A stretch of DNA of 38,534 bases, taken from NCBI GenBank assembly GCA_019449555.1, contig JAGRPN010000433.1, positions 1 through 38,534 of the forward strand. Direction: 5' to 3'. A model generated the notes under the pieces. It had not been told where the DNA came from. It searched no databases and was given only the letters and a program-made list of their open reading frames with translations. Shown piece after piece: positions 13,696-38,534 of this stretch; positions within the stretch are counted from its first letter, which is position 1, and each line of letters opens with the position of its first letter. Position numbers and translations under genes: made by a program. The DNA comes from Ramlibacter sp. (lineage in GTDB: Bacteria > Pseudomonadota > Gammaproteobacteria > Burkholderiales > Burkholderiaceae_C).

Positions 13696-14634
13696 TCACG
13701 AAACGCGCTGGTAATAGAGGTTCTGCGGGTGGCGCGCCTGCGCGAAGAAGACCCAGCGTTCGGCCAGGAGCCCCGCCGCCTGCACGAGCAGCGCCATCAC
13801 CCAGGGCATCGGCGAGGCAGTGCCCCAGCCCCACGCGAGCAGCGCCAGCGGCAGCGCGAAGCCGAACAGCACCGCCATCCATGTGACGCGCCGCAACGCC
13901 TGCGCGCCGAGCCGGTGAAAGAATTCGCGCGTGTTGAAGCTGCCCGCCGACATGCCCATGGACATCTGCACCAGCCGCCGCGCATGGATGCCGGTGGCCG
14001 ACTGCAATGTGGAGCGGGGCTTGAGCGCGGCGTTGCGCCGCAAGCTCGCCACGCGCGCCGCGCCTGCGGCCAGCGTGACGACGATCGCCGCCGGGCCCAC
14101 CACGGCGAGCAGGCGCGCTTCGCCGGCTACGGCGGCAAGCCCGGCCGCGAGCACCATGCCGGACGAAAGGCCGATCAGTGTGTAATTGACGGGCGTGAGC
14201 GGGTGCGCCCACTCCTGGATGAACCGGATGCCGGCGTAGATCATGCCGGTGCACACCCACAGCACGATCGCCAGCACGATCGCCGCCAGCGGGAACAGCA
14301 CGGCAACCGCCACGCCGCCGCGGCCCGCCACAAGGGCCAGCCACCACAGCGCGAGCACGCCGATCAGCGCGGGCAGCACGATCACCTCGCGCGAGAGCCA
14401 CGAGGTGCGCCACATGGCCGCCGCCCGCCACGCCCGCAGCGGCCGCGCGAGATGGAAGAACGACGCGGCCAGGCCGATCACCAGCAGCGCAATGGCCAGC
14501 CCCAGCCCGCGCGCGAGCAAGACATTGGAGGACGACAGCGCACCGCCCAGCACCGCCACGGACAGGCACACGGCCAGCCCCTGCCCGAAGCCGGCGAGCA
14601 CGGTGAAGAACACGACGGACCAGGCTGGATTCAT
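13696..14634 (-). CDS. soeC: SoeC: DmsC-family membrane anchor of sulfite dehydrogenase
   Basis: A 312-residue integral membrane protein with about eight helices, of the DMSO reductase anchor (DmsC) family. It would anchor SoeAB to the cytoplasmic side of the inner membrane and pass electrons from sulfite oxidation to quinone. The N-terminal PAWSVVFFTVLAGFGQG and the segment SFFHLARPLRAWRA (about residues 62-75) are typical of the family. Its ATG overlaps the soeB stop (ATGA at 14634-14631), so expression is coupled. DmsC proteins also serve DMSO, polysulfide or tetrathionate reductases; the Soe call rests on the SoeA sequence type and the sulfur-oxidation context. Confidence 0.85.
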   Translation of the reverse strand: MNPAWSVVFFTVLAGFGQGLAVCLSVAVLGGALSSSNVLLARGLGLAIALLVIGLAASFFHLARPLRAWRAAAMWRTSWLSREVIVLPALIGVLALWWLALVAGRGGVAVAVLFPLAAIVLAIVLWVCTGMIYAGIRFIQEWAHPLTPVNYTLIGLSSGMVLAAGLAAVAGEARLLAVVGPAAIVVTLAAGAARVASLRRNAALKPRSTLQSATGIHARRLVQMSMGMSAGSFNTREFFHRLGAQALRRVTWMAVLFGFALPLALLAWGWGTASPMPWVMALLVQAAGLLAERWVFFAQARHPQNLYYQRVS

Positions 14635-15308
14635 GGCGACGGGTCCGCGGGCTGCGCCGCCGGCGAGCGCCGCGGCAGGTAACGATTGGCGGGCCGCGTT
14701 TCCCATTCAGGCATCAGCGCGTACCCGCCCCGCTGCGCGATCGCCTGTGACACCTGCGAGTGCGGATCGTTGACGTCGCCGAACAGGCGCGCGCCAGTGG
14801 GGCACGCCTTCACGCACGCGGGCAGTCGATCGGCCGGCGGCAGCGCCGGGTCATGGATACGGTCCACGCACAGCGTGCACTTGGTCATCACGCGGCGTTC
14901 TTCGTCGAACTCGCGCGCGCCGTACGGGCAGGCCCACGAGCAGTACTTGCAACCGATGCACTTGTCGTAGTCCACCAGCACGATGCCGTCCTGCTTGCGC
15001 TTGTAGCTGGCACCGGTGGGGCAGACGGGCACGCATGGCGGGTCCTGGCAGTGCAGGCAGCTCTTGGGGAAGTGGACCGTGTCGGTCGCGGGGAAGGTGC
15101 CCGCCTCGTAGGTCTGCACGCGATTGAAGAAGGTGCCCGTCGGCCCCGCCCCATAAGCGGACTCATCGGCGAGCGGCCCCGCCGCGCCGGAGGTGTTCCA
15201 CTGCTTGCACGACGTCACGCAGGCCTGGCAGCCGACGCACACGTCCAGGTCGATCACCAGCGCGAGCTGGCGCGCCAGCGTCGGCCCGGAAGGTTCGGAT
15301 CCCTTCAT
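14631..15308 (-). CDS. soeB: SoeB: four-cluster iron-sulfur subunit of sulfite dehydrogenase
   Basis: A 225-residue cytoplasmic ferredoxin-like subunit with four cysteine groups, as expected for four [4Fe-4S] clusters: CVGCQACVTSC (24-34), CLHCQDPPCVPVCP, CIGCKYCSWACP and CTLC with a later CVKACP. It should carry electrons from the molybdenum site of SoeA to SoeC. There is no Tat signal, in line with a cytoplasmic enzyme. Its ATG overlaps the soeA stop (ATGA at 15308-15305) and its stop overlaps soeC, so the three subunits are tightly coupled. Confidence 0.9.
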   Translation of the reverse strand: MKGSEPSGPTLARQLALVIDLDVCVGCQACVTSCKQWNTSGAAGPLADESAYGAGPTGTFFNRVQTYEAGTFPATDTVHFPKSCLHCQDPPCVPVCPTGASYKRKQDGIVLVDYDKCIGCKYCSWACPYGAREFDEERRVMTKCTLCVDRIHDPALPPADRLPACVKACPTGARLFGDVNDPHSQVSQAIAQRGGYALMPEWETRPANRYLPRRSPAAQPADPSP

Positions 15309-18211
15309 CGATTCCTCCTGCCGGCAAAGTAGGCCAGCCGCTGCGGCGGGCGCTCGCGCGTGCCGGGTGCCGCCGGCACCGCCGCCACTTGCGGAAAGCT
15401 CTCGTGCGGCTCGTCCGCGGCGGCGGGGCGGATGCGAACGCGCACGTCGTACCAGCCGGCCTGGCCGGTGACGGGATCGCTGTTGCTGATGCGCGAGCGC
15501 GGCACGCCCGGTGCGGGCAGCTCGCTCGAGATCAGGTGGTTCAGCAGGAAGCCGCTGCGCGATTCGTCGGCGTCGGCGTCCAGCCGCCACGCGCCGCGGC
15601 CCTTGCCGATCGCATTCCAGGTCCACACCGTGCCCGGCTCGACGGCTTCGCTGTAGCGCAGCCGGCAGCGCACTTTGCCCCAGCGGCTCTCGACCCACGC
15701 CCAATCGCCGTCGGCCACGCCCGCGGCCTGCGCGGTGGCCGGATGCACGTGCAGGTAGTTGTGGCTGTGGATCTGCCGCAGCCACGCGTTCTGCGAGTCC
15801 CACGAGTGGTACATCGCCATCGGCCGCTGCGTCACCGCATTGAGCGGATACGCGCCGCGATCGGTGGCCGCGTCTTCCAATGGCGGATACCAGAACGGCA
15901 ACGGATCGAAGTAGGTGGCGATGCGCTCGCGCAGGTGCTCGGGCGGCTGCCGGCCGCTCGTCTTGCCCTGCGCCGCGAGGCGGAAGCTTTGCAGGCAGTC
16001 GGAATAGATCGCGAGCTGGATCGGGTCGTTCTTCTGCCGCCAGCCCTTGGCCTGCGCGAAATCCAGGTAGGCGCGATTCCAGTTGCGCATGTACTGCATG
16101 CCCTCCGGCAGGTGGTACTGGAACACGCAGTTGTTGGCTGCGTACATCTCCCACTGCTTCGGGTTGGGTGCGCCGCGCAGCGGCTCGCTGCCGCCCGCGC
16201 CGCGCCATCCCATGAGAAAGCCCACGCCGGGCTGGGCCTGGAAATTGACGATGAAGTCCTGGTAGCCGCTGAACTTGCGCGCGCCTTCGGGTGTGGTGAA
16301 CGCCGGCAATTTCAGCCGCGACGCCAGCTCGACCAGCACTTCCTGGAACGGCTTGCAGCCAGGCGGCGGAGCGACGACCGGCACCCGCACCGAATCGACC
16401 GGGCCGTCGAATTCGGAGATCGGCCGGTCGAGCATGCTCATCACGTCGTGCCGCTCGAGATAGGTGGTATCGGGCAGCACCAGGTCGGCGAAGGCCACGG
16501 TCTCGCTCTGGAACGTGTCGCAGACCGCCACGAACGGGATCATGTATTCGCCGTCATCGCCCCGGCGCGTGAGCATCTCGCGCGACCTCATCGGGTCCAT
16601 GCTGGAGTTCCACGCCATGTTGGCCATGAACAGCAACAGCATGTCGATCCGGTAGGGGTCGCCCCGGGCGGCGTTGGCCAGCACGTTGTGCATCAGGCCA
16701 TGCGCGGCCAGCGGGTACTCCCACGAGAACGCGTGGTCGATGCGCATCGGCGTGCCGTCGTCGAGGATCGCCAGTTCCTCGGGGCTGGCCGGGAAACCGA
16801 GCGGCGCCGCGTTCAGCGGCGTGTTCGGCTGGATCTGGTCGGGCGCATTGAACGCGCGGTAATTGGGCACGATGTGGCGCGGGTACGGCGCCTTGTGGCG
16901 AAAGCCCCCCGGCGCGTCGATGGTGCCGAGCACGGTCATGAGCACCGCCAGCGCGCGCACGGTCTGGAAGCCGTTCGAGTGCGCGGCCAGCCCGCGCATC
17001 GCGTGGAATGCGACCGGCCTCGCTTGCGTCGTCGCATGGTGCTTGCCCCACGCATCGGTCCACGCAATGGGAAGTTCGAACGCGTGCTGCAGCGCCGTCT
17101 CCCCCAGCTCGCGCGCCAATTGTGCGATCCGCTCGGCGGGGATGCCGGTTATGGCCGCTGCCCATGCCGGGGTGCAATCCCGCACGCGATCGATCAGCAA
17201 TTGGAATGCGGGGGCGACGCGCGTGCCGTCGGCCAGCGTGAAGCGTCCTTCCAGCGCGGGGTCGGCGCCCTCCGCAATCCCCTCGGGATACGCGGCGACG
17301 GCCCGGTTCGCGATGCGGTCCCAGACCAGCTTGTTGTGCGGATGCCGGCCGTCCGGCGCCGGCCCGGCCGCCGCGTCGAACGCGAACAAGCCCTCGCGCT
17401 CGCCGTCGTCGAGCACCACCAGTTGCGGCGCATTCGTGAAGCGCTTGAGGAACGCCCGGTCGACGCGCCCGCAGCGGATCAACTCGCTCAAAAGTGCCAT
17501 CAGCAGCGCCCCGTCGGTGCCGGGCTTGATCGGAATCCATTCGTCGGCGATCGCCGAATAGCCGGTGCGCACCGGGTTCACGGAGATGAACCGCCCGCCC
17601 GAACGCTTGAAGCGCGCGAGCGCCGCCTTCATCGGATTGCTGTGATGGTCCTCGGCGGTGCCGAGCATCACGAACAGTTTCGCCCGCTCGAGGTCGGGCC
17701 CGCCGAACTCCCAGAAGCTGCCGCCAACGGAATAGATCATCCCGGCCGCCATGTTCACCGAACAGAAGCCGCCGTGCGCCGCGTAATTCGGCGTGCCGAA
17801 CTGCCGCGCGAACAGCCCGGTGAGCGCCTGCATCTGGTCGCGGCCCGTGAACAGCGCGAACCGCTTCGGGTCGGTAGCGCGGATGCGCGACAGCCGCTCT
17901 TCCAGCAGCTCGAAGGCGCGCTCCCACGAGATCGGCTCAAATTCGCCCGCACCGCGTTCGCTGCCCGCCTTGCGCAGCAGCGGCTGCGTCAGCCGCGCGG
18001 GCGAGAGCTGCTTCATGATGCCGGCGGAACCCTTGGCGCAGATCACGCCCTGGTTGATGGGATGCTCCGGATTGCCGTCGATGTAGCGGATCTCGCCGTC
18101 CCGCAGGTGCACGCGGATGCCGCAGCGGCAGGCGCACATGTAGCAGGTGGTGGTCTTCACCTGCGTGCCAGCCGAGGCGTACGGCGGGCCGAGCGGGTCG
18201 TGCAGCGGCAT
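15305..18211 (-). CDS. soeA: SoeA: molybdopterin subunit of cytoplasmic sulfite dehydrogenase
   Basis: A 968-residue molybdopterin oxidoreductase of the DMSO reductase/polysulfide reductase class. The N terminus binds a [4Fe-4S] cluster through C23-x2-C26-x3-C30-x27-C58 (CYMCACRCG ... GVICAKG). There is no signal peptide, in contrast to periplasmic PsrA/PhsA, so the enzyme faces the cytoplasm as SoeA does. It should oxidise sulfite, the product of the Dsr and persulfide dioxygenase routes, directly to sulfate. The length fits SoeA (about 950-970). Its ATG shares one base with the stop of the FadL-type gene (TGATG). Assignment over another related oxidoreductase rests on sequence type, the missing signal and the neighbouring sulfur genes. 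Confidence 0.87.
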   Translation of the reverse strand: MPLHDPLGPPYASAGTQVKTTTCYMCACRCGIRVHLRDGEIRYIDGNPEHPINQGVICAKGSAGIMKQLSPARLTQPLLRKAGSERGAGEFEPISWERAFELLEERLSRIRATDPKRFALFTGRDQMQALTGLFARQFGTPNYAAHGGFCSVNMAAGMIYSVGGSFWEFGGPDLERAKLFVMLGTAEDHHSNPMKAALARFKRSGGRFISVNPVRTGYSAIADEWIPIKPGTDGALLMALLSELIRCGRVDRAFLKRFTNAPQLVVLDDGEREGLFAFDAAAGPAPDGRHPHNKLVWDRIANRAVAAYPEGIAEGADPALEGRFTLADGTRVAPAFQLLIDRVRDCTPAWAAAITGIPAERIAQLARELGETALQHAFELPIAWTDAWGKHHATTQARPVAFHAMRGLAAHSNGFQTVRALAVLMTVLGTIDAPGGFRHKAPYPRHIVPNYRAFNAPDQIQPNTPLNAAPLGFPASPEELAILDDGTPMRIDHAFSWEYPLAAHGLMHNVLANAARGDPYRIDMLLLFMANMAWNSSMDPMRSREMLTRRGDDGEYMIPFVAVCDTFQSETVAFADLVLPDTTYLERHDVMSMLDRPISEFDGPVDSVRVPVVAPPPGCKPFQEVLVELASRLKLPAFTTPEGARKFSGYQDFIVNFQAQPGVGFLMGWRGAGGSEPLRGAPNPKQWEMYAANNCVFQYHLPEGMQYMRNWNRAYLDFAQAKGWRQKNDPIQLAIYSDCLQSFRLAAQGKTSGRQPPEHLRERIATYFDPLPFWYPPLEDAATDRGAYPLNAVTQRPMAMYHSWDSQNAWLRQIHSHNYLHVHPATAQAAGVADGDWAWVESRWGKVRCRLRYSEAVEPGTVWTWNAIGKGRGAWRLDADADESRSGFLLNHLISSELPAPGVPRSRISNSDPVTGQAGWYDVRVRIRPAAADEPHESFPQVAAVPAAPGTRERPPQRLAYFAGRRNR

Positions 18212-19506
18212 CAGAACTTCTTGCTCCAGCCCAGGCCGATGGAGAACTCGCGCATGCGGATGGTCTCGTTGCCGCCGGCGCCCGGGCCGAGCACGGCGTT
18301 GAACATGGACGGTCCGCTCACGCTGCCGCGCCGCGCGAACATGAAGGCGCCGGTGAATTCGCTGTCGTTGCCCATCGCCTGGGTGAATCCGACCGTGTAA
18401 TGGCTGGTCATCACGCCCGGCGCGAGGATGTTGAAAGTGACGTCGGACGACCGGATCGGGTTGTCGTTGTGGTTGTAGCCCGCGCGCAGCGTGAGGCGGC
18501 TGTTCATCTGCCATGCGACGCCGAGCTTGTAGACGTTGATGTCGCGCCAGCCGAAGCCGGGGCCGTTCGCCGCGCCCAGCGGAGCGAGCGCCGAGCTCGG
18601 ATTGCCCACCGACGCGACGCCCGAGTAGTTGATGCGCTGGTAGTCCGCGGCCACCGTCCACGCGGGCACCGGCGAGAACGAAACGCCCGCGCTGTAGTTC
18701 GCCGGGATATCGAAATCGCCATTGCCGGCGAACAGGCCGGCGTACTTGTCGAAGCGGCTCATGTTCATCTTCGGCGCGTAGGCCACGCCCACGTTGACGC
18801 GATCGGCGATCCGGCCGAAGTAGCCGATGCGCACACCGACGCCGGTGGAATTGTCGTGGCCTCTGTTGGTCACGTTGCCCGGACTTTGCGTGAAGGGAGG
18901 AAAACCGGGGGCGTTGTCGAAGGCCTGGAGCCCATCCGCCTTGAATCGCTGGTAGCCCAGCAGCACCGAAGCGCCGATCGAGTGATCCGGATGGAACTTG
19001 TATGCGACCGTGGGGGCCACGATCAGTTGCATCAGGTCCACGCCCAGAGCGCCCCGGCCGCACAGCATGTTTGCGGCGCCGCCACCACAGTTGAAATTGC
19101 CTTGCGGGTAGGTGGTGTTCATCCCGCCGTTGCCGTACACGCTCACACCCGCCGACAGGGTGGTGTTGATCATGCGGTTGTAGCCGAACTCCGGGATCAG
19201 GAAGTAGTTGCGGTCGCTTTCCACGCTGCCGTTGAGGGTCGCGAAGCCGGCGCCGCTGCGCGTTGCGTCGCGCCACGGGCTGAACAAATCGACGCCGACG
19301 TCCAGGCGGGAGCCCGACCAGACCATGCTTGCGGGATTGGTCGCGCCGCCCAGGCTGTCCTGGGCCATCGCGGTCGATGCGCCCGCCATGCCCTTGGCCT
19401 TGAGGCCGTAGCCATGCGCGAAATAGCCGTTGGTGGCAAGCGCCGGCACGGCCACGAGGGCCGCCGCGAGCGGCGTGAGCCGGGTCAGGCGTTTGAAATT
19501 CGTCAT
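18211..19506 (-). CDS. OmpP1/FadL-type outer-membrane transport protein
   Basis: A 431-residue outer-membrane beta-barrel of the OmpP1/FadL/TodX family, which moves hydrophobic compounds across the outer membrane. A Sec signal peptide covers residues 1-24 (cleavage after PALA), followed by NGYFAHGYGLKAKGMAGAST, the N-terminal hatch segment with the family's NPA motif at GGATNPASM. The protein ends in phenylalanine (GLGWSKKF), as barrel proteins do. The ATG at 19506 has GGAG eight bases upstream. The stop overlaps the soeA start by one base, so it belongs to the soe operon. The natural substrate is unknown; sulfur or an organosulfur compound is a reasonable guess from context. Confidence 0.88.
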   Translation of the reverse strand: MTNFKRLTRLTPLAAALVAVPALATNGYFAHGYGLKAKGMAGASTAMAQDSLGGATNPASMVWSGSRLDVGVDLFSPWRDATRSGAGFATLNGSVESDRNYFLIPEFGYNRMINTTLSAGVSVYGNGGMNTTYPQGNFNCGGGAANMLCGRGALGVDLMQLIVAPTVAYKFHPDHSIGASVLLGYQRFKADGLQAFDNAPGFPPFTQSPGNVTNRGHDNSTGVGVRIGYFGRIADRVNVGVAYAPKMNMSRFDKYAGLFAGNGDFDIPANYSAGVSFSPVPAWTVAADYQRINYSGVASVGNPSSALAPLGAANGPGFGWRDINVYKLGVAWQMNSRLTLRAGYNHNDNPIRSSDVTFNILAPGVMTSHYTVGFTQAMGNDSEFTGAFMFARRGSVSGPSMFNAVLGPGAGGNETIRMREFSIGLGWSKKF

Positions 19507-19573
19507 CGGATGTCTCCTCGTTCTGGGTGGAAAAAGCGGTGCGGTTGCGGTCGGGGTGGCGGGCGCGGCGGCT

Positions 19574-20194
19574 TCACCAATACGCCTGCAGGCGGCCGTT
19601 GACGACGCGGCACTCGCGCTCGCGCAGCGGCTTGTCGCCCTCGGCCGTGCAGGCACCCGAACGCACGTCGAACCGCCAGCCGTGGCGCGGGCAAGCCAAT
19701 GTGTTGCCGTCGGCGTCGAGCTGCGCGATATCGGTGTCCTGGTGCGGGCAGCGGCTGTCGTACACGCGCCAGCCCCGCGCGCCGCGGTGGGCGAACACCG
19801 CCCGTCCGTCGCATTCGACGCGCCGCGTGTGCCCCAGCCGGATGCTGCGGGTTGCCGCGACGTCATGCCACTGCGGCGTGGCGGCGGCGCCGCTGAACTC
19901 GGGCAAGTCGAGCGCGAGGATCACGTCGATCGCCCACACGATCTTCGCGAGCCCCAGCGCCGGAAATGCCGCCAGCAGCGCGTCGAGCACTTCGCCGGCG
20001 GTGCAGCCTTCGCGCAGCGCCCGCGCCAGGTACTGGCGCAGTCCCCGCTCGGTCTGCGCATGCACTTTGGTGATCACGGAGATCAGGTTGCGCGTCTTCG
20101 GGTCGAGCCGGCTGCCGCAGTCCTTGAGGAACGCGAAGTAGTGCCCCATCGCCTCGGGACGCGAGCGCACCAGGTACGAGAGAGCGTCGCTCAT
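19574..20194 (-). CDS. Carboxymuconolactone-decarboxylase-like / Rieske [2Fe-2S] fusion protein
   Basis: A 206-residue cytoplasmic fusion. Residues 1-95 resemble the AhpD/CMD helical fold (LDPKTRNLISVITKVHAQTE, then AGEVLDALLAAFPALG) but lack the CxxC pair of redox-active AhpD. Residues 110-206 form a Rieske domain of ferredoxin type with ligands C149-x-H151 and C168-x2-H171 (SRCPHQD ... LACPRHGW). The Rieske cluster implies electron transfer, perhaps to or from a partner oxidoreductase; no catalytic domain is attached. It is the first gene of the soe operon, 67 bp before the FadL gene. I know of no established function for this fusion. Confidence 0.8.
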   Translation of the reverse strand: MSDALSYLVRSRPEAMGHYFAFLKDCGSRLDPKTRNLISVITKVHAQTERGLRQYLARALREGCTAGEVLDALLAAFPALGLAKIVWAIDVILALDLPEFSGAAATPQWHDVAATRSIRLGHTRRVECDGRAVFAHRGARGWRVYDSRCPHQDTDIAQLDADGNTLACPRHGWRFDVRSGACTAEGDKPLRERECRVVNGRLQAYW

Positions 20195-20510
20195 GCGGGC
20201 AGTCGACCACTCATGTCCGGGCGGCGCCGTCCTGGCCGCGCGCTTGCGGCGCGGCGACGCGGCTGCGTGGCGCAGGGGATCGGTCCGGCGGCGGTGTCAC
20301 GGGCATGAGCGGGTCTCTCTCTTGCGGCGGCGCGACACCGCAAGGAGGGCGCGGTCGGTCGGCTTCAACGCTGGGTGCGATTAGCGCAGCGCGGGGCGAG
20401 CGCGTCTATAGCCGCAAAGGGGGGATCGGGCATTACCCATAGTGGGTATGCATGGCACCACTGGATTTCTGGCGCATCCGGGCTACAGTTACTCTTCAGG
20501 GATACTCCCG
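20195..20510. promoter_or_regulatory. Divergent promoter region between the soe operon and the NarXL-like genes
   Basis: This 316-bp spacer must carry the leftward promoter of the CMD-Rieske/soe operon and the rightward promoter of the sensor kinase. I see no gene in it. A possible rightward sigma70 pair is TGGATT (20462-20467) and TACAGT (20484-20489), 16 bases apart. The palindrome at 20434-20448 is listed separately. No clear leftward promoter was identified. Confidence 0.5.
20434..20448. promoter_or_regulatory. NarL-like palindromic operator candidate
   Basis: TACCCATAGTGGGTA is a palindrome with 6-bp arms and a 3-bp centre. Read as heptamers, TACCCAT fits the NarL consensus TACYYMT exactly and the opposite TACCCAC fits in six of seven positions, but the gap is one base rather than the usual two. 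It ends 62 bp before the start of the NarX-like kinase and upstream of the possible promoter, consistent with regulation by the adjacent NarL-type regulator. Confidence 0.5.
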
Positions 20511-21746: not shown

Positions 21747-22402
21747 ACCAGCCATTGAAGATCATCCTCGTCGAGGACCATTCCTTGTGCCGTAGCGGGC
21801 TCACCGACCTGCTGAACCAGCGCGGCCAGATGCAGGTGGCCGCCGCCACGGGCGACGCGGAGCAGGTGCCCACGCTATTGCAGGAACACCAGCCGGACCT
21901 GCTGGTGCTCGACCTGCGCATGCCGTCCATCGACGGGCTGGCGCTGCTCCGCCGGCTGCGCGCCGCCGGCTTCGAAACGCCGGCGCTGATCCTGACCATG
22001 AGCGACGCGCAGGAGGACCTGGCGGCCGCGCTGCGGCTGGGCGTGCGCGGCTACCTGCTCAAGGACATGGAACCGGAGGACGTGATCGCGGCCATCGGGC
22101 GCGCCGCCCGCGGCGAACTGGTGGTGGCGCCCTCGCTCATGCTCAAGCTCGCGCAGATGCTGCAGCACGGCGCGCCCGGCGGCGAGCGCCAGGACCTGCT
22201 GGCCTCCCTCACCGAGCGCGAACTGGAGATCCTGGAGCACCTCGCGCGCGGCGAAAGCAACAAGACCATCGCCCGCGCGCTGGAGATCAGCCACGACACG
22301 GTGAAGCTGCACGTGCGGCACATCCTGTCCAAGTTGAACCTGAGCTCGCGCGTGGAGGCCGCGGTGTTCGCCGTGGAAGCGCGCGCGGCGAAGGCGCGCT
22401 AG
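21743..22402 (+). CDS. NarL/FixJ-type response regulator
   Basis: A 219-residue regulator with an N-terminal receiver (acidic pair in VEDH at 10-13, phospho-acceptor D57, K107 in YLLKDME) and a C-terminal LuxR-type helix-turn-helix at about residues 155-202 (SNKTIARALEISHDTVKLHV). The GTG at 21743 overlaps the kinase stop, with GGGAG upstream, so the pair is translated together. It probably binds the palindrome at 20434-20448, which has NarL-type heptamers. Target genes are inferred from position: the divergent soe operon and its own operon. Confidence 0.9.
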   Translation: MNQPLKIILVEDHSLCRSGLTDLLNQRGQMQVAAATGDAEQVPTLLQEHQPDLLVLDLRMPSIDGLALLRRLRAAGFETPALILTMSDAQEDLAAALRLGVRGYLLKDMEPEDVIAAIGRAARGELVVAPSLMLKLAQMLQHGAPGGERQDLLASLTERELEILEHLARGESNKTIARALEISHDTVKLHVRHILSKLNLSSRVEAAVFAVEARAAKAR

Positions 22403-25642: not shown

Positions 25643-25643
25643 A

Positions 25644-31026: not shown

Positions 31027-31752
31027 CTACACTCCGCGATAGCGCACGGCGGGATCGACCCCGAGGTCGGCGCGCAATTGGGTGGTGTTCCACTCGCGCA
31101 CGCGCCGCGAGATTTCGCTGGCCGGATCGTTGAGGTCGCCGAACACGATCGCGTCGTGGCCGGCCTTCGCGCACGCTTCGGCGCAGGCCGTCACCTTCTG
31201 GCCGCTGTCCAGCCGATGCACACACATCGTGCAGCCTTCCACGCAGCCTTTGCCGCGCGGCACGTCGGGCTGCTGGCTGTCCAGCGGTTCGTGCACGAAG
31301 GAGCGCGCCTTGTAGGGGCAGGCCATCATGCAATAGCGGCAGCCGATGCAGGCGTGGCGATCCACCAGCACGATGCCGTCGGCGCGCTTGAACGAGGCGC
31401 CGGTCGGGCAGACGTCGACACAGGGCGGCTCGGCGCAGTGCTGGCACATCACCGGGGCCGATGCGGTGCGGCCGGTGCGGATTTCCCGGATCTCGATCTT
31501 GCGTACCCACTGCGCGTCGGTGGGGCGCGTGCCATCGGGCAGGCCGTTTTCCGTGCGGCAGGCCTTGACGCAATCGTCGCAGCCCGGCGCGCACTTCGTC
31601 GCGTCGATCAGCATGCCCCAGCGAACGCCCGGCTTCAGCGCCACCTGCGGCGTCTCGGCACGCGCGATCTCGATCAGCCGCACCCCAGGCGCGAGCACGA
31701 TCCCGCCCAACCCCGCGGCGGCGACGGCGAGAAAGCCGCGGCGTCCGCTCAC
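31027..31752 (-). CDS. dsrO: DsrO: Tat-exported iron-sulfur protein
   Basis: A 241-residue periplasmic iron-sulfur subunit. The N terminus GRRGFLAVAAAGLGGIVLA with R4-R5 is a Tat signal, with cleavage likely after ARA near residue 32. Several cysteine groups follow (CAPGCDDCVKAC; CQHCAEPPCVDVCP; CIGCRYCMMACP; CVEGCTMC), fitting multiple [4Fe-4S] clusters. In DsrMKJOP it hands electrons between DsrJ and DsrP. The GTG at 31752 overlaps the dsrJ stop (GTGA), so the start is well fixed. Confidence 0.92.
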   Translation of the reverse strand: MSGRRGFLAVAAAGLGGIVLAPGVRLIEIARAETPQVALKPGVRWGMLIDATKCAPGCDDCVKACRTENGLPDGTRPTDAQWVRKIEIREIRTGRTASAPVMCQHCAEPPCVDVCPTGASFKRADGIVLVDRHACIGCRYCMMACPYKARSFVHEPLDSQQPDVPRGKGCVEGCTMCVHRLDSGQKVTACAEACAKAGHDAIVFGDLNDPASEISRRVREWNTTQLRADLGVDPAVRYRGV

Positions 31753-32135
31753 TTGGCAGCTCCAGCGAGGCGGACGGCGCCGGTCGCCTTCGCAATCCCC
31801 GCGCCCCCCGGCTTCGATGCGTGGCATTCGAAGCAGTCGATCTTCACCGCCGCGTAACTGTGGCAGCTCACGCAGAAATCGGTCTGCGCCTGGGCGACGC
31901 TGCCGGTCTCGCGGCCGGCGTGGCATTCGACGCAGCCCTTGAGACTGAACTTGCCGGCGCGCATGCCGGCGTGGACCGTGTCGTCGCGCTGGTGCTTCAT
32001 CAGGTCCATGTGGTTGCGCCGCATGAACGCCGGGTCGGCGACGCATTGCGCCCCCTTCGTCGCGCGCTCGATCACGGGCTGCGCGGCGGCAGCCGTGGCG
32101 GCGAGCAGGCAGGCGAGGACGAGCGCAGCGCGCAC
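31749..32135 (-). CDS. dsrJ: DsrJ: periplasmic triheme cytochrome c
   Basis: A 128-residue cytochrome with three CxxCH haem sites: C68-VE-CH (to H72), C88-VS-CH (to H92) and C101-FE-CH (to H105). C31 in GAQCVADPAF is the cysteine known to serve as an unusual axial ligand to one haem in DsrJ. A hydrophobic N terminus (residues 1-19) serves as signal or anchor. The GTG at 32135 follows GGGAG by about eight bases, two bases after the dsrL stop. It likely receives electrons from periplasmic sulfur compounds for DsrMKJOP. Confidence 0.92.
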   Translation of the reverse strand: MRAALVLACLLAATAAAAQPVIERATKGAQCVADPAFMRRNHMDLMKHQRDDTVHAGMRAGKFSLKGCVECHAGRETGSVAQAQTDFCVSCHSYAAVKIDCFECHASKPGGAGIAKATGAVRLAGAAK

Positions 32136-32137: not shown

Positions 32138-34096
32138 CTACTCTCCCAATCCCATCTGGATGTAGCCGGTCGGACACACGTCCTTGCAGATGTGGCAGCC
32201 CACGCACTTGCTGTAGTCGGTATCCACGTAGCGGCCGGTGGTGGCCTTGGACTTGGGCACCTTGAACACCGCCGTCTGCGGGCAGTACACGACGCAGTTG
32301 TCGCACTCGAAGCACTGGCCGCAGCTCATGCATCGTTTCGCTTCGGCTTGCGCTTGCGCTTCCAGCAGCGGCAGCATCCGCTCCTCGAAGTTATCCAGTG
32401 CCTCTTCTTTCGTCAGCGTGAGCACCTTGCGCCGGTTGCGCGGCGTGTACTGGAAGTGGCCCAGGAACAGCTCGGTGCTGGGGATCACGTACCGCTCCGA
32501 GCGGTTCTCGTAGTTGTGGATCGCGCCGGCGCTGCGGTCGGTGCCGCGCAGCGGCGCGTTGATCGTCTCGGTCGGCAGGCCCTTTTCCACGATCTTGCGC
32601 ACCAGGTCGAAGCTGTGCACGTCGATCTTCGGCCGCTTGTCGAGCGCCTCGCTGCGCAGGTGGCGATCGATCCCGTCGGCGGCGATCGCGCCGTGGCCGA
32701 TCGCCGTCGTGAGCAGGTGCGGCCGCACCACGTCGCCGCCGACGAACATGCCCGGCTGGCCCTGCACCTGGTAGTTCCTGTCCGCGCTGATGCCGCCCTT
32801 GCCGTTGTTGAGACTTTCCAGGCCGCTGAAGTCCACCGCCTGGCCGATCGCCGAAACGATCAGGTCGGCCTCGATGTCCTCTTCGGTGCCCGGGACGGCC
32901 TTGATTTCCAGCCGGCCGCCGGCGAGCTTGGCCTCGCACTGCGCCACGCGCAGCGCCGTGGCGCGGCCCGAAGCGTCGCGGATCACCGCCACCGGTGTCA
33001 GCCCGCCGCGAATCGCGATGCCCTCGGCCATCGCCTGCTCGATCTCGTGCTTGTTGGCCTGCATCTTGTCGATAACGAACACCGAGGTCAGCGTCACTTC
33101 GGCGCCCTGCCGCGCCGAGAGCGACGCGGCGTCGTGCGCGGCATGGCCGGCGATCACGCGCTCGGGCAGGTCGCTTTCATGCACATGCTCGATATGGCCC
33201 AGGCGGCGAGCGACCGTGGCCACGTCGATCGACGTGTCGCCGCCACCTACCACCACCACGCGCTTGCCGACATAGCGCATGCGTCCGTCGTTGAAGGCCT
33301 TGAGGAAGGCGGTGGCCGTGACGCAGTTCGGCGCATCGGCGCCCTCCACGGGCAGCGCCCGCCCGGCCTGGGCGCCCAGGCCCAGGAACACGGCGTCGAA
33401 CTGGGAGCGCAACTGCTCCAGCGTCACGTCGGTGCCGATGCGGCAGTTCATCCGCGCCTGCACGCCCAGGTCGAGGATGCGCTGGATCTCCGCGTCGAGC
33501 ACCTGGCGCGGCGTGCGAAAGCCCGGGATGCCGTAGCGCATCATGCCGCCGAGCTCGGCGCGCTCGTCGAAGATGGTGACGGCATGGCCCTTGCGCGCCA
33601 GCTGGTAGGCCGCCGACAGGCCGGCCGGCCCGCCGCCGATCACCGCCACCTTCTTGCCGGTGCGTTCGCTGGGCTGCGGGAACGCCAGTTTGTGCTCGAT
33701 CGCCCACTCACCCAGGAAATGCTCGACCGAGTTGATACCGACGTAATCCTCCACTTCGTTGCGGTTGCAGCCCGACTCGCAGGGCGCCGGGCAGACGCGG
33801 CCCATCACCGACGGCAGCGGGTTGGCCTCGGTGAGCCGGCGCCACGCGTACTCCTGCCAGGCCATGCCGGCCGGCGGCTTCTCGATGCCGCGCACGATGT
33901 TGAGGTAGCCGCGGATATCCTCGCCCGACGGGCAGCTGCCCTGGCAGGGCGGCGTGCTCTGCACGTAGGTCGGGCACTTGTGCGAATGGTCGGCGTCGAA
34001 GATCTCTTCCTGCCAGGCGCGCGGCTTGTGGTCGCCGTCCTTGAAGCGGCGGAAGGTGAGCGGGCGGGCCTGGACGTTCTCAGGGATGGCTGACAT
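32138..34096 (-). CDS. dsrL: DsrL: NAD(P)H-linked FAD/iron-sulfur oxidoreductase
   Basis: A 652-residue cytoplasmic flavoprotein related to the small subunit of glutamate synthase. An N-terminal cysteine-rich segment (CPTYVQSTPPCQGSCPSGED; CPAPCESGC) binds iron-sulfur clusters, then comes the FAD site VIGGGPAGLSAAYQL (about 150-165), an NAD(P) site VVVGGGDTSIDVATVARR, and a C-terminal two-cluster ferredoxin (CMSCGQCFECDNC; CVGCHICKDVCP). DsrL is required for sulfur oxidation through reverse DsrAB and acts as NAD(P):DsrAB electron partner, so its presence marks the oxidative Dsr type. The ATG at 34096 is 17 bases inside the end of sqr, so translation is coupled. Confidence 0.93.
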   Translation of the reverse strand: MSAIPENVQARPLTFRRFKDGDHKPRAWQEEIFDADHSHKCPTYVQSTPPCQGSCPSGEDIRGYLNIVRGIEKPPAGMAWQEYAWRRLTEANPLPSVMGRVCPAPCESGCNRNEVEDYVGINSVEHFLGEWAIEHKLAFPQPSERTGKKVAVIGGGPAGLSAAYQLARKGHAVTIFDERAELGGMMRYGIPGFRTPRQVLDAEIQRILDLGVQARMNCRIGTDVTLEQLRSQFDAVFLGLGAQAGRALPVEGADAPNCVTATAFLKAFNDGRMRYVGKRVVVVGGGDTSIDVATVARRLGHIEHVHESDLPERVIAGHAAHDAASLSARQGAEVTLTSVFVIDKMQANKHEIEQAMAEGIAIRGGLTPVAVIRDASGRATALRVAQCEAKLAGGRLEIKAVPGTEEDIEADLIVSAIGQAVDFSGLESLNNGKGGISADRNYQVQGQPGMFVGGDVVRPHLLTTAIGHGAIAADGIDRHLRSEALDKRPKIDVHSFDLVRKIVEKGLPTETINAPLRGTDRSAGAIHNYENRSERYVIPSTELFLGHFQYTPRNRRKVLTLTKEEALDNFEERMLPLLEAQAQAEAKRCMSCGQCFECDNCVVYCPQTAVFKVPKSKATTGRYVDTDYSKCVGCHICKDVCPTGYIQMGLGE

Positions 34097-35447
34097 GGGT
34101 GGGTTCCTGTTCGGTGGGTCGGGCCGCGGCCGTGACCGCCGGCTGGGCGAGCACTGGCGCCGGGCCAGGCCCGTGCTTGATGACACGCACGATGCCCAGT
34201 GCCTTGAGGATGTACTTCTCGTAGATCGGCTCGGAGGTGCCGGTCCTGAGCTTGCGCATGAAGTACTTCTCGTACGCGATCTTGGCGAAGTGCACCCATT
34301 TGCCTTTCTTGAACCAGTTCACGTTGCGCGGCGGGATCTGCGGCAAGGCCACGAACGCCATGCCGTTGTCGCCCATGTCGGCCAGGCAGATCGCGTTCCA
34401 GGTGCCCTTGGTGCTGGCGGTGCTGCCGTTCAGTTCGTCGGCAATGTTGTGCACGATCGCCGTGACCATCGTCTCGATCATGTAGCCGGTCTTCGGGGCG
34501 CCCGTCGCCACCGGCGTCGCCTCCACCGGCGGGATCGCCACGCACACACCCGCGGAAAAGATGTTCTTGTAGGCCTTGCTGCGCTGGTAGTCGTCGATCA
34601 GCACGAAGCCGCGCGGATTGCACAGGTTGGGCACCGCCGCCACCGCGTCCACGCCCTTGAAGGCCGGCAGCATCATCGACAGCTTGAACGGGATTTCGTG
34701 CTCCTTGAACACCTGCCCCAGGTCGTCGAGCTGCGTGACGAACAGCTTGTTCGGTTCCACCTTCGTCGTCTTGGCGTTGGTGATCCACTTGATGTCGTGG
34801 TTGCGAAACTCCGACTCCAGCAGCGACTTGGAGTCGCCCACGCCGCCCAGGCCCAGGTGGCCGATGTAGGGCTCTCTGGTGACGAAGGTGATCGGCACCT
34901 TGTGGCGCAATTTCCTGCGGCGCAGGTCAGTGTCGAGGATGAACGCGAACTCGTACGCCGGCCCGAAGCAGCTCGCACCGGGCATGGCACCGACCACCAC
35001 CGGGCCGGGGTTCTTCAGGAATTCCTGGTAGTCGGCCCAGAAGGCTTCGGCATGCCCGACGGCGCACACCGAATGGGTGTGGCCGCCGTGCGGCCCCGAT
35101 CCGGGGACTTCGGCGAAGCTGAGCTTGGGCCCGGTCGTGATGACGAGGTAGTCGTAGTCCAGCGTCTCGCCGCCTTCCAGCACGAGGCGGCTGGCGTCGG
35201 CGTCGATCTTCTCGGCCGCCTTGGCGACGAACCCGACGCCCTTGCGCTCCAATAGCGGCGCGATCTGCATCACCACCTCCTCGCGCTTGCGCCAGCCCAC
35301 GGCCAGCCAGGGATTGGAGGGCACGAACTGGAAATAGTCGAGCGCGTTGACGACGGTGATCCTGTGCTGCTTGGGCAGCATGTCGCGCATTTCGATGGCG
35401 CAGGGCATGCCGCCGATGCCGGCGCCGAGGATGACGATGTGGGCCAT
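34080..35447 (-). CDS. sqr: Sulfide:quinone oxidoreductase, inside the dsr operon
   Basis: A 455-residue membrane-associated flavoprotein. The N-terminal FAD motif is GAGIGG (9-14). Cysteines C128, C160 and C354 (in ICLADMGD) sit where Acidithiobacillus SQR has catalytic C128, C160 and C356; two further cysteines (C276, C302) flank the flavin region. This supports oxidation of sulfide to sulfane sulfur with quinone as acceptor. The C-terminal ~40 residues (proline/alanine-rich) are an extension of unclear function. It sits between dsrK (27-bp gap) and dsrL (17-bp overlap); in the classical order dsrK and dsrL are adjacent. A related flavocytochrome subunit is the main alternative. Confidence 0.85.
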   Translation of the reverse strand: MAHIVILGAGIGGMPCAIEMRDMLPKQHRITVVNALDYFQFVPSNPWLAVGWRKREEVVMQIAPLLERKGVGFVAKAAEKIDADASRLVLEGGETLDYDYLVITTGPKLSFAEVPGSGPHGGHTHSVCAVGHAEAFWADYQEFLKNPGPVVVGAMPGASCFGPAYEFAFILDTDLRRRKLRHKVPITFVTREPYIGHLGLGGVGDSKSLLESEFRNHDIKWITNAKTTKVEPNKLFVTQLDDLGQVFKEHEIPFKLSMMLPAFKGVDAVAAVPNLCNPRGFVLIDDYQRSKAYKNIFSAGVCVAIPPVEATPVATGAPKTGYMIETMVTAIVHNIADELNGSTASTKGTWNAICLADMGDNGMAFVALPQIPPRNVNWFKKGKWVHFAKIAYEKYFMRKLRTGTSEPIYEKYILKALGIVRVIKHGPGPAPVLAQPAVTAAARPTEQEPTHVSHP

Positions 35448-35474: not shown

Positions 35475-36971
35475 TCAATGTGGCTCGCCGAGCCGGATAG
35501 CCTTGCTCACCAGCTGGTGCACGCCCCCGACCATGCTCATGTCGAAGCCGTAGTAGGGCAGCACCTTGCTGAACTGCGCCTTGCAGATCGCGCAGATCGT
35601 GGCCATGAAATTGACGCCGTGCTGGTCCACGACGTTCTTGAGCGCTTCCATGCGGGGCAGCGCGCCCTTGACGCGCAGCTCCAGCAGGTCGTCGGTGAGC
35701 AGGCCGCCGCCGCCACCGCAGCAGAAGGTGCTCTCGTGGATGGTCTCCGGCGCCATGTCGTGGAACCGGTTGGCCACCGCCTTGATGATCTCGCGCGGGA
35801 TGATGAACTGCCCGCCGGGCATGCTGCCCATGCGCGAAGCGCGCGCGACGTTGCACGAATCGTGGAAGGTGATGATGCGGTCGTCGTTCCTTTCCTTGTC
35901 GAACTTCAGCGCCCCCCGCCCGATGAGGTCGTGGGTGAATTCGCAGATGTGCTGCGGCACGGGGTAGCGCGGATCGAGCCAGTCGAACGGGCCGATCAGC
36001 GTGTTCCAGAAGCTGTAGGCGACGCGCCACGCATGACCGCATTCGCCGATGACGATGCGCTTGACGCCCAGCCGCTGCGCCTCTTCCTTCACCCGCAGGG
36101 AGATCTTGCGCATCTGCTCGTAGTTGCCGATGAAGAGCGCGAAATTCGCCGCCTCGCTCGCCCTGGAGCTGAGCGTCCACGAGATGCCGGCCGCATGGAA
36201 CACCTTGGCGTAGCCGATCAGGCTTTCCACATGGGGTTCGGAGAAGAAATCGGCCGAGGGCGTGATCAACAGCACCTCGGCGCCTTCGACATCCAACGGG
36301 AAGCGCACGTCGATGCCGGTGTCTTCCTTCGTGTCCTCTTCCAGGCCCGCCAGCGTGTCGGCCAGCGCCGGCTCCGGGATGCCCAGGTTGTTGCCGAGGC
36401 GGTGGACCTTGCCGATGATCTCGTTGGCGTACTTCTGCCCCAGGCCGACCGAGTCCATGATCTCGCGCGCCGCCATCGTGATCTCGGCGGTGTCGATGCC
36501 GTAAGGGCAGAACACCGAACAGCGCCGGCATTCGGAGCACTGGTTGTAGTAGCTCCACCATTGGTCGAGCACGTCCTTGCTCATGTCGACCGCGCCCACC
36601 AGTTTCGGGAAGTGCTTGCCCGCGAACGTGAAATAGCGCCGGTACACCGCGCGCATCAGGTCCTGCCGGGCGACCGGCATGTTCTTCGGGTCGCCCGTGC
36701 CCAGGAAATAGTGGCACTTGTCGGAGCAGGCGCCGCAGTGCACGCACGTGTCCATATAGACGCGCAGCGACCGGTACTTGTCCAGCAGCTCGCCCATCCT
36801 GGCGACGGCGCGCTGCTCCCAGCCTTCCACCAGCTCGCCGGGAAAACCGATCGCGCCCTGGATCGCCGGCGATGCCACGAAGGGCTTGCTGTGAGCCATG
36901 GCGCCCACGGCGACGAGCGGGATCACCGGGTACGGCTTGAGCCGGGGCGTGTCGAAGGTTGCGGCGGCCAA
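35475..36971 (-). CDS. dsrK: DsrK: HdrD-like iron-sulfur subunit
   Basis: A 498-residue cytoplasmic subunit of DsrMKJOP related to heterodisulfide reductase HdrD. Two [4Fe-4S] motifs are present: C76-VH-C79-GA-C82-SDK-C86 and CSECRRCSVFCP. CCG-type segments (FCCGGGGG and the earlier HDSCN) hold the catalytic cluster thought to act on the DsrC disulfide or trisulfide. I chose the TTG at 36971, with AAGGA upstream and a 13-bp gap from dsrM; an ATG at 36899 would drop 24 residues, including the conserved-looking LKPYPVIPL. DsrC is encoded just upstream, as its substrate. Confidence 0.93.
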   Translation of the reverse strand: MAAATFDTPRLKPYPVIPLVAVGAMAHSKPFVASPAIQGAIGFPGELVEGWEQRAVARMGELLDKYRSLRVYMDTCVHCGACSDKCHYFLGTGDPKNMPVARQDLMRAVYRRYFTFAGKHFPKLVGAVDMSKDVLDQWWSYYNQCSECRRCSVFCPYGIDTAEITMAAREIMDSVGLGQKYANEIIGKVHRLGNNLGIPEPALADTLAGLEEDTKEDTGIDVRFPLDVEGAEVLLITPSADFFSEPHVESLIGYAKVFHAAGISWTLSSRASEAANFALFIGNYEQMRKISLRVKEEAQRLGVKRIVIGECGHAWRVAYSFWNTLIGPFDWLDPRYPVPQHICEFTHDLIGRGALKFDKERNDDRIITFHDSCNVARASRMGSMPGGQFIIPREIIKAVANRFHDMAPETIHESTFCCGGGGGLLTDDLLELRVKGALPRMEALKNVVDQHGVNFMATICAICKAQFSKVLPYYGFDMSMVGGVHQLVSKAIRLGEPH

Positions 36972-36984: not shown

Positions 36985-37719
36985 TCAGGCGCGGCGTTCC
37001 AGGCCCGCGGCCCAGGGCGCCAGGTGCCGCTGGTCGCGCGCGGTGTCGGCCTGGTTGCGCGTGGGGCTGAAGAACAGGCCCGGCCCGTGCATCAGTTTGC
37101 TGATCGGGAAGACGATCATCAGCAGCGCCACCAGGGCCAGGTGGATCAATAGCGGCGCATCGGCCGGCAGCGGCTGCAGGTCGAAGCGCATCAGCCCGAG
37201 CGCGAAGGCTTTCACCGCGACGATGTCGGTGTGGTTCACGAACCGCATCGCCAGGCCGCTCGCCCCGATGGCCAGCAGCAGCGCCAGGTGCAGATGATCC
37301 GACGGCGTGGAGATATAGCGCACCCGGTCCACCAGCCAGCGGCGGGCCCACAAGCCCGCCAGCCCCAGCACCATCGCGATGCCGGCATAGGCGCCCAGAG
37401 GCTGGACCAGCACGATCGGCGGCCACACCGGCTGCTGGAAATAGCGCAGGTGCCGCAGCAGCACCAGCAGCAGCGCCGCGTGGAAAGTCCAGCCGAAGAT
37501 CCAGGTCCATTTGCTCGAGCGGAACAGGCTTTCGAAGAACACGACTTCGCGGGCGAGGCGCAGCGCGACGCCGGCATTGGTCGTCGGCGCCGGCGTGGTC
37601 GGGATCTTCAGCGGGGCGGGCGTGCGCACATAGCCGCGGATCTTCAGCGCGACGCCGACGACCAGCACTGCCACCGACAGGTACAGCAGGGCCGCGTAGA
37701 TGACGGCGAGTGCGGACAT
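36985..37719 (-). CDS. dsrM: DsrM: NarI-like membrane cytochrome b
   Basis: A 244-residue integral membrane protein with about five helices, related to the cytochrome b subunit NarI of nitrate reductase and HdrE. It should bind haem b (histidines in WTFHAALLLVLLRHLRYF and in the SDHLHLALLL region) and link DsrK to the quinone pool. The first helix is at about residues 5-25. It follows dsrC by 41 bp and precedes dsrK by 13 bp. Confidence 0.9.
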   Translation of the reverse strand: MSALAVIYAALLYLSVAVLVVGVALKIRGYVRTPAPLKIPTTPAPTTNAGVALRLAREVVFFESLFRSSKWTWIFGWTFHAALLLVLLRHLRYFQQPVWPPIVLVQPLGAYAGIAMVLGLAGLWARRWLVDRVRYISTPSDHLHLALLLAIGASGLAMRFVNHTDIVAVKAFALGLMRFDLQPLPADAPLLIHLALVALLMIVFPISKLMHGPGLFFSPTRNQADTARDQRHLAPWAAGLERRA

Positions 37720-37760: not shown

Positions 37761-38093
37761 TCAGACGCAGCCGGTCGGCTTGGGCAGGCCCGCGATCTTG
37801 CAGGCCTGCTTGGCCGGGCCGTACGGGAACAGCTCGTACAGGTACTTGCTGTTGCCCTTGTCCGGCCCGAGCTGCTTGCCGATCGCCTTGGTCAGCACGC
37901 GCACCGCCGGGGCGATCTGGTACTCGCTGTAGTAGTCGCGCAGGAAGTTGACGACCTCCCAGTGGTTGGGCGTCATGTCGACGTTCTCCGCTTTCGCGAT
38001 CAGGTTGGCGAGCTGCTCGTTCCAGTCGGAGAGGTTGACCAGATAACCTTCCTCGTCGGTTTCGTAGCTGGAGCCGTTGATTTCGATGGGCAT
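37761..38093 (-). CDS. dsrC: DsrC: sulfur-carrier protein with both catalytic cysteines
   Basis: A 110-residue carrier protein that holds sulfur as persulfide and, with DsrAB, as a trisulfide between its two C-terminal cysteines. Both are present: C98 and C109, in CKIAGLPKPTGCV, ten residues apart, with the last cysteine next to the C-terminal valine. The ATG at 38093 has an AGGAGA site upstream. It is the substrate of DsrEFH transfer and of DsrK, encoded on either side. Confidence 0.95.
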   Translation of the reverse strand: MPIEINGSSYETDEEGYLVNLSDWNEQLANLIAKAENVDMTPNHWEVVNFLRDYYSEYQIAPAVRVLTKAIGKQLGPDKGNSKYLYELFPYGPAKQACKIAGLPKPTGCV

Positions 38094-38112: not shown

Positions 38113-38412
38113 TCAAAGCCAGGATTGGGTGGTGGAATGGCCGGCGACGAGGTCGACGAAGCCGGGATAATCGACGGGCTCGACGCCGCCCGCGCGATGC
38201 GCGGCCATGCCGCGCGCCTCGAGGTCGGGCAGCAGGACACAGAGCTTCAGCCGGCCCAGCGCCTCGCGCAAGCCGCAGCTGTCGGCGCCGGCGGCGGTCG
38301 CCGCGTACACGGCATCCTCGATCAGCAGCACGGTGTGGCCGTCCTGTGCCACGCGCAGGCAGCTTTGCAGCGCCAAGGACTGTTGCGGTGACTTGTTGAC
38401 GATGTGCAGCAT
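38113..38412 (-). CDS. dsrH: DsrH (TusB-like) sulfur-relay subunit
   Basis: A 99-residue protein of the DsrH/TusB family, starting MLHIVNKSPQQSLALQSC. C18 is at the position of the conserved cysteine of DsrH (C20 in Allochromatium); C46 and C58 are additional. It forms the DsrE2F2H2 hexamer with DsrE and DsrF and passes sulfane sulfur to DsrC, encoded 19 bp downstream. The W-L C terminus is typical. Confidence 0.9.
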   Translation of the reverse strand: MLHIVNKSPQQSLALQSCLRVAQDGHTVLLIEDAVYAATAAGADSCGLREALGRLKLCVLLPDLEARGMAAHRAGGVEPVDYPGFVDLVAGHSTTQSWL

Positions 38413-38421
38413 GGTGGCGTC

Positions 38422-38534
38422 CTAGAAAGAGAGAACCACGTCCTGCGACGCCATCAGCTCACCCAGCTCCGCGCTGGAGAGCACCGCCACCGGCACCATC
38501 AGGTCGTCCTCGTCCAGCCCGCGTCGCTCGAGCG
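38422..38534 (-). CDS. dsrF: DsrF (TusC-like) sulfur-relay subunit, C-terminal end
   Basis: The frame runs in from the right edge and shows the last ~37 residues, ending GLDEDDLMVPVAVLSSAELG ... DVVLSF. This tail is typical of DsrF, and the position directly before dsrH (9-bp gap) agrees. dsrE and probably dsrAB should follow beyond the edge in the upstream direction. Confidence 0.85.
   Translation of the reverse strand, partial: LERRGLDEDDLMVPVAVLSSAELGELMASQDVVLSF

Follow-up and report, generated by a model that had tools for sequence, protein, structure and literature searches.

The DNA analysed here, which we call the window, is the whole of contig JAGRPN010000433.1 (38,534 nucleotides; C282 among our contigs) of the Ramlibacter sp. 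assembly GCA_019449555.1. We believe it holds the downstream part of an island for the reverse dissimilatory sulfite reductase pathway (rDsr). Our best explanation, to which we give a probability of about 0.77, is that the dsr block came to this genus, on the Comamonadaceae side of its family, from a donor like Ideonella or Rubrivivax on the Sphaerotilaceae side, and that an operon encoding a Cas6-like protein came with it. The sulfite-oxidizing complex SoeABC would have another origin, and the whole would be under the control of a two-component system of the NarXL type.

The source genome (5.10 Mb in 458 contigs, 96% complete, 3.09% contamination) appears to have its dsr locus divided between two contigs. 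The right end of the window cuts dsrF, and the 5' part of the locus resumes on contig C389, where the N-terminal 224 aa of DsrA lie at the extreme end on the minus strand (TIGR02064, 299 bits) and are 80-93% identical to the rDsr loci of the family. Read from its right end, the minus strand of the window gives the end of dsrF, then dsrH-C-M-K-sqr-L-J-O-P-N-dsrC2, a dsrR-like gene and cobA. Beyond cobA are a DsrE-family/NifS pair on the plus strand and then, on the minus strand, an ArsR-rhodanese gene, a persulfide dioxygenase and a major facilitator superfamily (MFS) transporter. Further left come a NarXL-type kinase and regulator (plus), followed by a fusion of carboxymuconolactone decarboxylase (CMD) and Rieske domains, a FadL/TodX protein and soeABC (minus). 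Neither contig shows dsrB, dsrE or the remainder of dsrA, dsrE being outside the window.

The original prediction for this DNA, made by a model from the letters and their open reading frames, named dsrH, C, M, K, L, J, O, P and N, sqr, soeABC, a persulfide dioxygenase, a DsrE/desulfurase pair and regulators, and profile or PDB matches recover all of them. Its run from dsrF to dsrN is right as to the genes, except that dsrF is present as roughly its last 36 codons and dsrE falls outside. It was also right to call sqr, which is located within the operon, with dsrK on one side and dsrL on the other. It overlooked the cysteine-less dsrC2 (28063-28428), the dsrR-like IscA gene and cobA. Functions throughout are assigned from known families, and for dsrM, dsrJ, dsrP and dsrR, which score below the NCBIfam cut-offs, the naming rests also on place in the operon.

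We predict that this Dsr system is oxidative, that is, reverse, because its DsrL is of type 1: the YRR motif is absent and a long insertion in the NAD domain follows GGGDTS. The available excerpt of PMC7596348, the source of the type criteria, reports type 1 with oxidative DsrAB only. The earlier claim that dsrL marks the oxidative direction is correct for DsrL-1, the type found here, and incorrect for DsrL-2 as that excerpt describes it. The window also has the features expected of a reverse system in a DsrC with both C-terminal cysteines and a complete DsrMKJOP; of dsrEFH the data contain dsrH entire, the end of dsrF and no dsrE. SQR, the sulfide:quinone oxidoreductase, aligns with the Acidithiobacillus ferrooxidans enzyme (PDB 3sz0) over 2-422, keeping the FAD domain and the positions of three cysteines that we take to be the redox cysteines of that enzyme. 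The two share these positions, and the SQR gene here lies inside a dsr operon.

It had also been proposed that apr and sat are absent and that sulfite is oxidized by Soe only. This agrees with the 96% complete genome, in which aprA has no match above cut-off (best 26 bits, cut-off 642) and sat has no match. Soe is therefore the only cytoplasmic sulfite oxidizer found, in a search that did not include sorAB, and its genes have the composition expected of SoeABC: a molybdenum cofactor subunit, an iron-sulfur subunit and a DmsC-type anchor, in the order A-B-C. The same genome-wide search found dsrA, did not show dsrB, and gave a soxB on another contig at 864 bits (soxB being the only sox gene sought; soxCD were not searched). 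A lack of dsrAB upstream of dsrE had been named as grounds for giving up the island; dsrA exists in the genome, and dsrB and the link to dsrE are unseen. On gene content this is predicted to be a genome with the Sox-Dsr-Soe pathway, as far as tested. Across the family aprA and sat form an all-or-none pair: of the 26 dsr-positive genomes, an identical 13 have both above cut-off.

The pathway would work as follows if the proteins act like known members of their families. SQR would oxidize sulfide to zero-valent sulfur, and DsrE-family proteins and DsrEFH would hand the sulfur to DsrC. DsrAB, whose gene pair starts on C389, would make sulfite while passing electrons to NAD via DsrL, and DsrMKJOP would recycle DsrC. 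SoeABC would then convert sulfite to sulfate and feed the quinone pool. The cobA product would make the sirohaem and that of dsrN would amidate it.

The two halves of this pathway appear to have different histories. The closest SoeA, at 78% identity, is that of a congener without dsr genes (G272); identity to the others is at most 69%, and in the SoeA tree the source genome and G272 stand apart from 19 others; G272 carries soeABC at a different place in its genome. Since SoeA groups with that of a dsr-less congener, we take SoeABC to be of other origin than the dsr block and the island to be composite. The pairing of soe with dsr is not special to the source genome, because in 12 of its 26 dsr-positive family members the distance between soeABC and dsrA is 14-25 kb. 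The run soeABC, CMD-Rieske, FadL and sqr is consecutive in three of the 26 (G091, G193 and G267), so the window has a rearranged form of this order. Four of the 26 (G101, G107, G273 and the 79% complete G249) yielded no SoeA at or above about 60% identity, and three of these four carry aprA and sat. One could instead argue that SoeABC is uncoupled from rDsr and serves to detoxify sulfite that arises from organosulfonates or from spills of sulfide. Its nearest relative in dsr-less G272 would fit, as would homologues at 67-68% on Burkholderia and Paraburkholderia replicons. We consider this unlikely: soeABC is close to dsr genes in the window and in the 12 genomes just mentioned, and no apr or sat was found as an alternative.

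For the dsr block itself, a search of 299 genomes from the GTDB family found dsrA above cut-off in 23, with partial genes in three more (the source genome, G100 and G107). As had been predicted, rDsr is rare in the lineage; its distribution is patchy, covering these 26 genomes and one of four in the genus, the three sampled congeners having no dsrA. The rpoB tree of 24 genomes places the source genome with those congeners and six others in a clade of 10, with a support of 100 by the Shimodaira-Hasegawa-like approximate likelihood ratio test (SH-aLRT). By rpoB, TrpS and SerS the genome and both contigs are linked to their own genus on the Comamonadaceae side. The Dsr proteins say otherwise. Whether the tree is built from six Dsr proteins (23 rows), from DsrK, DsrL and DsrC (45 rows, with named rows and outgroups) or from seven Dsr proteins (40 rows), the source genome falls in the other large clade. 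Named rows place Polaromonas and Rhodoferax in the first clade and Rubrivivax and Ideonella in the second; in NCBI families Polaromonas belongs to the Comamonadaceae and Piscinibacter to the Sphaerotilaceae. The nearest rows are G199 and Ideonella sp. A288 in the DsrK+L+C tree (98). The seven-protein tree gives a single partner row (97), with Ideonella A288 nearest by path and identity (84%). The order dsrK-sqr-dsrL is rare, occurring in one of 22 other family loci and three of 60 named loci that hold both genes; Ideonella A288 shares it, and another locus (L145) ends inside sqr.

The approximately unbiased (AU) test bears on both sides of this conflict. Holding the source genome to the Comamonadaceae side in the Dsr tree gives p 0.0007 with three genes and nine rows, p 0.049 with three genes and eleven rows (Hylemonella and Hydrogenophaga added) and p 0.010 with seven genes and eleven rows. 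In rpoB, joining it to G199 is rejected at p 5e-46 and joining it to 13 of the 14 second-side rows at p 7e-5. The flanks are native. For TrpS in the window, identity is 76-79% with the congeners, 69-78% with first-side genomes and no more than 65% with the Sphaerotilaceae side. For SerS on C389 the values are 79% with congener G097, 75% with G274 of the first side and, among full-length matches, no more than 73% with the second side. Nine genes at 1-12.1 kb of the window, from a PHP gene to a sigma-54 regulator, are collinear in G272, and the genes from SerS to RadC on C389 have the same order in G097. The window was originally thought to contain a transferred metabolic island. The comparison of Dsr trees with rpoB, and of the flanks with relatives, bears this out for the dsr block, with one grouping marginal at p 0.049; the idea of a single transferred unit is not supported, SoeA being of the type found in G272.

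Simple inheritance across the family, which would have undone the case for transfer, is not favored. A vertical history with many losses would account for the alike operon order and for the Cas6-like gene in all 26 dsr-positive genomes, the two large clades do keep their own Dsr types, and one AU grouping is marginal. However, the source genome crosses the clades, its rpoB belonging to one and its Dsr proteins to the other (AU p 0.0007 to 0.049), and three sampled congeners are without dsrA. We regard this history as quite improbable; an old presence in the family plus one lateral move fits better.

The operon that would have traveled with the dsr block lies at 902-5225 of C389 (locus L025), divergent from dsrA, and encodes DUF6967, a Cas6-family protein, a cysteine-less DsrC (dsrC3), a helical protein, a TauD-like protein and a 2Fe-2S/FAD reductase. 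The second of these belongs to the Cas6 sequence family, has its Cas6 fold supported on a homologue, and bears the NCBI name type I-MYXAN Cas6/Cmx6, which refers to CRISPR (clustered regularly interspaced short palindromic repeats). Its distribution follows rDsr. In a sample of 369 genomes of one GTDB class, 111 have both the Cas6-family protein and DsrA, eight have DsrA only, seven have Cas6 only and 243 have neither; the two genes are divergent neighbors in 82 of 84 pairs on the same contig. The gene is found in 72 of 80 named dsrA loci, which are from Beta- and Gammaproteobacteria, and six of the eight without it hold less than 1.8 kb upstream. Within about 10 kb there is no Cas6-like gene in L185 (Hydrogenophilus thiooxidans) or L201 (a Thiohalomonas metagenome-assembled genome, MAG).

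The exceptions in the class sample are as follows. No Cas6-family gene turned up elsewhere in any of the eight DsrA-only genomes (of 119 with DsrA). In G508 13.7 kb upstream of dsrA lack it, a true absence there; five (G368, G377, G407, G504 and G651) have less than 2 kb of contig upstream of dsrA, G420 has a TauD-like gene and then the contig end, and G534 has a mere piece at a contig end. Among the seven Cas6-only genomes (of 118), the locus has a DsrC-like gene in six, a TauD-like gene in five and a DsrA fragment in one.

Could the gene be a CRISPR remnant or hitchhiker with no connection to sulfur oxidation? We find this very unlikely given the co-occurrence and divergent adjacency just described. 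There is no cas1 match in 43 of 80 tested carriers, including genomes of 1.0-1.1 Mb, and a home-made scan found no CRISPR array in 138 loci. Beside the Cas6-like gene no array or other cas genes were seen, the neighbors being dsrA, dsrC3, the TauD-like gene and others, and the gene is kept even though its sequences, 68 in all, share only 31-64% identity with the first. Because its co-occurrence with rDsr is near constant, the Cas6-family protein probably has its function in sulfur oxidation and not in CRISPR. Of the 68 sequences, 36 have His and 29 have Tyr at residue 13 (together 65), and our guess is that this residue is a Cas6-like active site. The usual neighbor, dsrC3, has lost both cysteines and kept the C-terminal arm LPQPxGKGGY. 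We tentatively suggest, as an idea somewhat short of even odds, that the protein was co-opted from CRISPR into rDsr across the Beta- and Gammaproteobacteria, and that together with dsrC3 it would sense the state of DsrC/DsrAB, bind or process dsr RNA and set expression post-transcriptionally.

Three side observations belong to this locus. The helical protein (L025 2181-2831) and its 61 homologues (alignment A4) are conserved beside rDsr; its model has a predicted local distance difference test (pLDDT) value of 93, and it belongs to no family in Pfam or NCBIfam and has no significant hit in the PDB. Tandem repeats of 81-84 bp, not CRISPR, lie downstream of dsrC3 at L143 8273-8459 (a Polaromonas MAG) and L161 23-315 (an uncultured beta proteobacterium). 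The source genome has cas1 in a 666-aa frame at C85 10853-11776, hence some CRISPR machinery away from the contig with the Cas6-like gene.

A putative control site, TACCC-N(3-6)-GGGT[AG], has one copy in the window (20434, where the kinase gene begins) and one in C389 (808, between dsrA and DUF6967); a looser form of the repeat is at C389 8255, ahead of dsrE2-yedE. Relatives' loci (38, totaling 666 kb) contain 17 strict sites, 12 between dsrA and DUF6967, four between kinase and soeA and one elsewhere; the first position has a strict site in 11 of 25 such loci, and the second has its four sites among 12 loci. A looser pattern, derived from the same sequences in which it was counted, precedes dsrA in 20 of the 26 family loci and in 31 of the 80 named ones, where shuffles give means of 0 and 0.3. 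These sites likely define a NarL-type regulon, and the NarXL-type system would act through them; that the NarL-type regulator binds them is suggested by its conserved place.

Several points weigh against our explanation. The AU outcome depends on the grouping and is marginal for one, and the trees were built quickly, with SH-aLRT support and without bootstrapping. rpoB does not reject a split of the source genome plus all 14 second-side rows from the other nine (p 0.37), because an early branch of this genome on its own side satisfies that split too. Some genes do not separate the sides, with medians of 65.3/65.2% for DsrJ, 68.5/67.8% for DsrC2 and 67.9/67.4% for CobA. The G+C content is flat (0.65-0.72, no step), so the odd composition of an island is not seen; the window has no tRNA, and no integrase was noticed among the examined open reading frames, though no dedicated search was made. 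All seven Comamonadaceae-side dsrA loci lack the strict motif. The Burkholderia and Paraburkholderia SoeA homologues belong here as well, as does the gap between C282 and C389, which would be neighbors; gene order leads us to place the end of dsrA, dsrB and dsrE in it. The weakest rival, to which we give hardly any credence, is that a Sphaerotilaceae fragment was mis-binned with a Comamonadaceae-side genome: the 458 contigs, the 3.09% contamination and Dsr proteins from another lineage would fit, and a chimeric join is possible in the window between 12.1 and 13.7 kb or in C389 between 8 and 16 kb, but the TrpS and SerS that these two contigs encode have their nearest matches in congeners and the surrounding gene order is that of G272 and G097.

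Table 1. Features of the sulfur oxidation region in the window, from its right end leftward
Feature	Coordinates	Strand	Basis
dsrF 3' end, ~36 codons	38422..38534	-	contig-end translation; named by place upstream of dsrH
dsrH	38113..38412	-	TIGR03011 87 bits, cut-off 49
dsrC, both C-terminal cysteines (..ACKIAGLPKPTGCV)	37761..38093	-	TIGR03342 171 bits
dsrM	36985..37719	-	NF038037 165 bits, below cut-off 300; operon place
dsrK	35475..36899	-	NF045796 587 bits, above cut-off
sqr, sulfide:quinone oxidoreductase	34080..35447	-	590 bits to A. ferrooxidans SQR 3sz0
dsrL type 1, 652 aa	32138..34096	-	no YRR motif; long insertion after GGGDTS
dsrJ	31749..32135	-	NF038038 58 bits, below cut-off 100; CxxCH motifs; operon place
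dsrO	31027..31752	-	NF045797 296 bits, above cut-off
dsrP	29840..31024	-	NF045798 47 bits, below cut-off; NrfD PF03916 152 bits
dsrN, CobB-type amidase	28431..29837	-	NF002204 430 bits
dsrC2, DsrC paralogue without C-terminal cysteines (ends ..GNRLAGLLRTKGEH)	28063..28428	-	PF04358 113 bits
dsrR-like IscA-family gene	27707..28051	-	TIGR00049 33 bits, below cut-off; same position in most examined relatives
cobA, uroporphyrinogen-III methyltransferase (sirohaem for DsrAB)	26846..27685	-	TIGR01469 305 bits
NifS/IscS-type cysteine desulfurase	25644..26810	+	TIGR03402 430 bits, below cut-off; PF00266 252 bits
DsrE-family sulfurtransferase	25301..25642	+	PF02635 81 bits
ArsR-rhodanese fusion regulator	24468..25121	-	PF01022 and PF00581
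Metallo-beta-lactamase-fold persulfide dioxygenase, Blh/ETHE1-like	23692..24447	-	part 23692-24270: 3tp9 111 bits, human ETHE1 4chl 43 bits
MFS transporter	22415..23692	-	PF07690 148 bits
NarL-type response regulator, start approximate	21755..22402	+	NF007935 200 bits, below cut-off 250
GAF-containing NarX-type sensor kinase	20448..21746	+	profile matches; true start may be further downstream
Inverted repeat TACCCATAGTGGGTA, sole copy in window	20434..20448	.	same site class in relatives
CMD-Rieske fusion protein	19574..20194	-	PF02627 and PF00355
FadL/TodX outer-membrane protein	18211..19506	-	PF03349 79 bits
soeA, molybdopterin subunit	15305..18211	-	PF00384, PF04879, PF01568; own branch with congener G272
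soeB, iron-sulfur subunit	14631..15308	-	
soeC, DmsC-type membrane anchor	13696..14706	-	PF04976 83 bits

Between cobA and the regulator, the DsrE/NifS pair (25301-26810) faces the ArsR-rhodanese, persulfide dioxygenase and MFS genes (22415-25121). In most relatives' loci that cover this spot the NarL-type regulator, 65-89% identical, closely adjoins cobA, so the block 22415-26810 looks like a module inserted between the two. The CMD-Rieske fusion and FadL/TodX protein (18211-20194) accompany soeABC and sqr in several relatives, and their role is possibly in sulfur uptake or quinone-linked chemistry.

The Sox-Dsr-Soe pathway itself is already known. Its core, as given in the available excerpt of PMC6397845, is matched here by soxB, dsrA, the end of dsrF, dsrH-C-M-K-L-J-O-P and soeABC with no apr or sat found; the genome differs in having sqr between dsrK and dsrL and a Soe of other origin than Dsr. 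That excerpt reports soeABC in all of its dsr-positive strains, unlike the family studied here, in four of whose dsr-positive genomes no SoeA reaching about 60% identity was found. The Allochromatium vinosum cluster dsrABEFHCMKLJOPNRS, as it appears in the excerpt of PMC3368242, agrees in gene order between dsrF and dsrN except for sqr and then has a dsrR gene, but here sqr is inserted, dsrC2 lies between dsrN and dsrR, and cobA is next. Compared with the Cas6 of a type I-B CRISPR-associated transposon (PDB 8fcj) and the Cas6/Cmx6 family TIGR02807, the protein here sits beside dsrA and usually a cysteine-less DsrC, with no cas operon or array seen and His or Tyr at residue 13.

What is new is that an rDsr block would have moved between two Burkholderiales lineages and met a sulfite-oxidizing half of other origin, which would mean that the complete pathway was assembled from parts. 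The TACCC-N-GGGTA site would define a regulon that can be tested. Also new is a protein annotated as CRISPR Cas6 that is a near-constant companion of rDsr and is kept in genomes of about 1 Mb with no cas1 found. If the Cas6-like protein does act on dsr RNA, it would add an unstudied level of regulation to sulfur oxidizers, and in sulfur bacteria and symbionts the label CRISPR would be misleading in many annotations.

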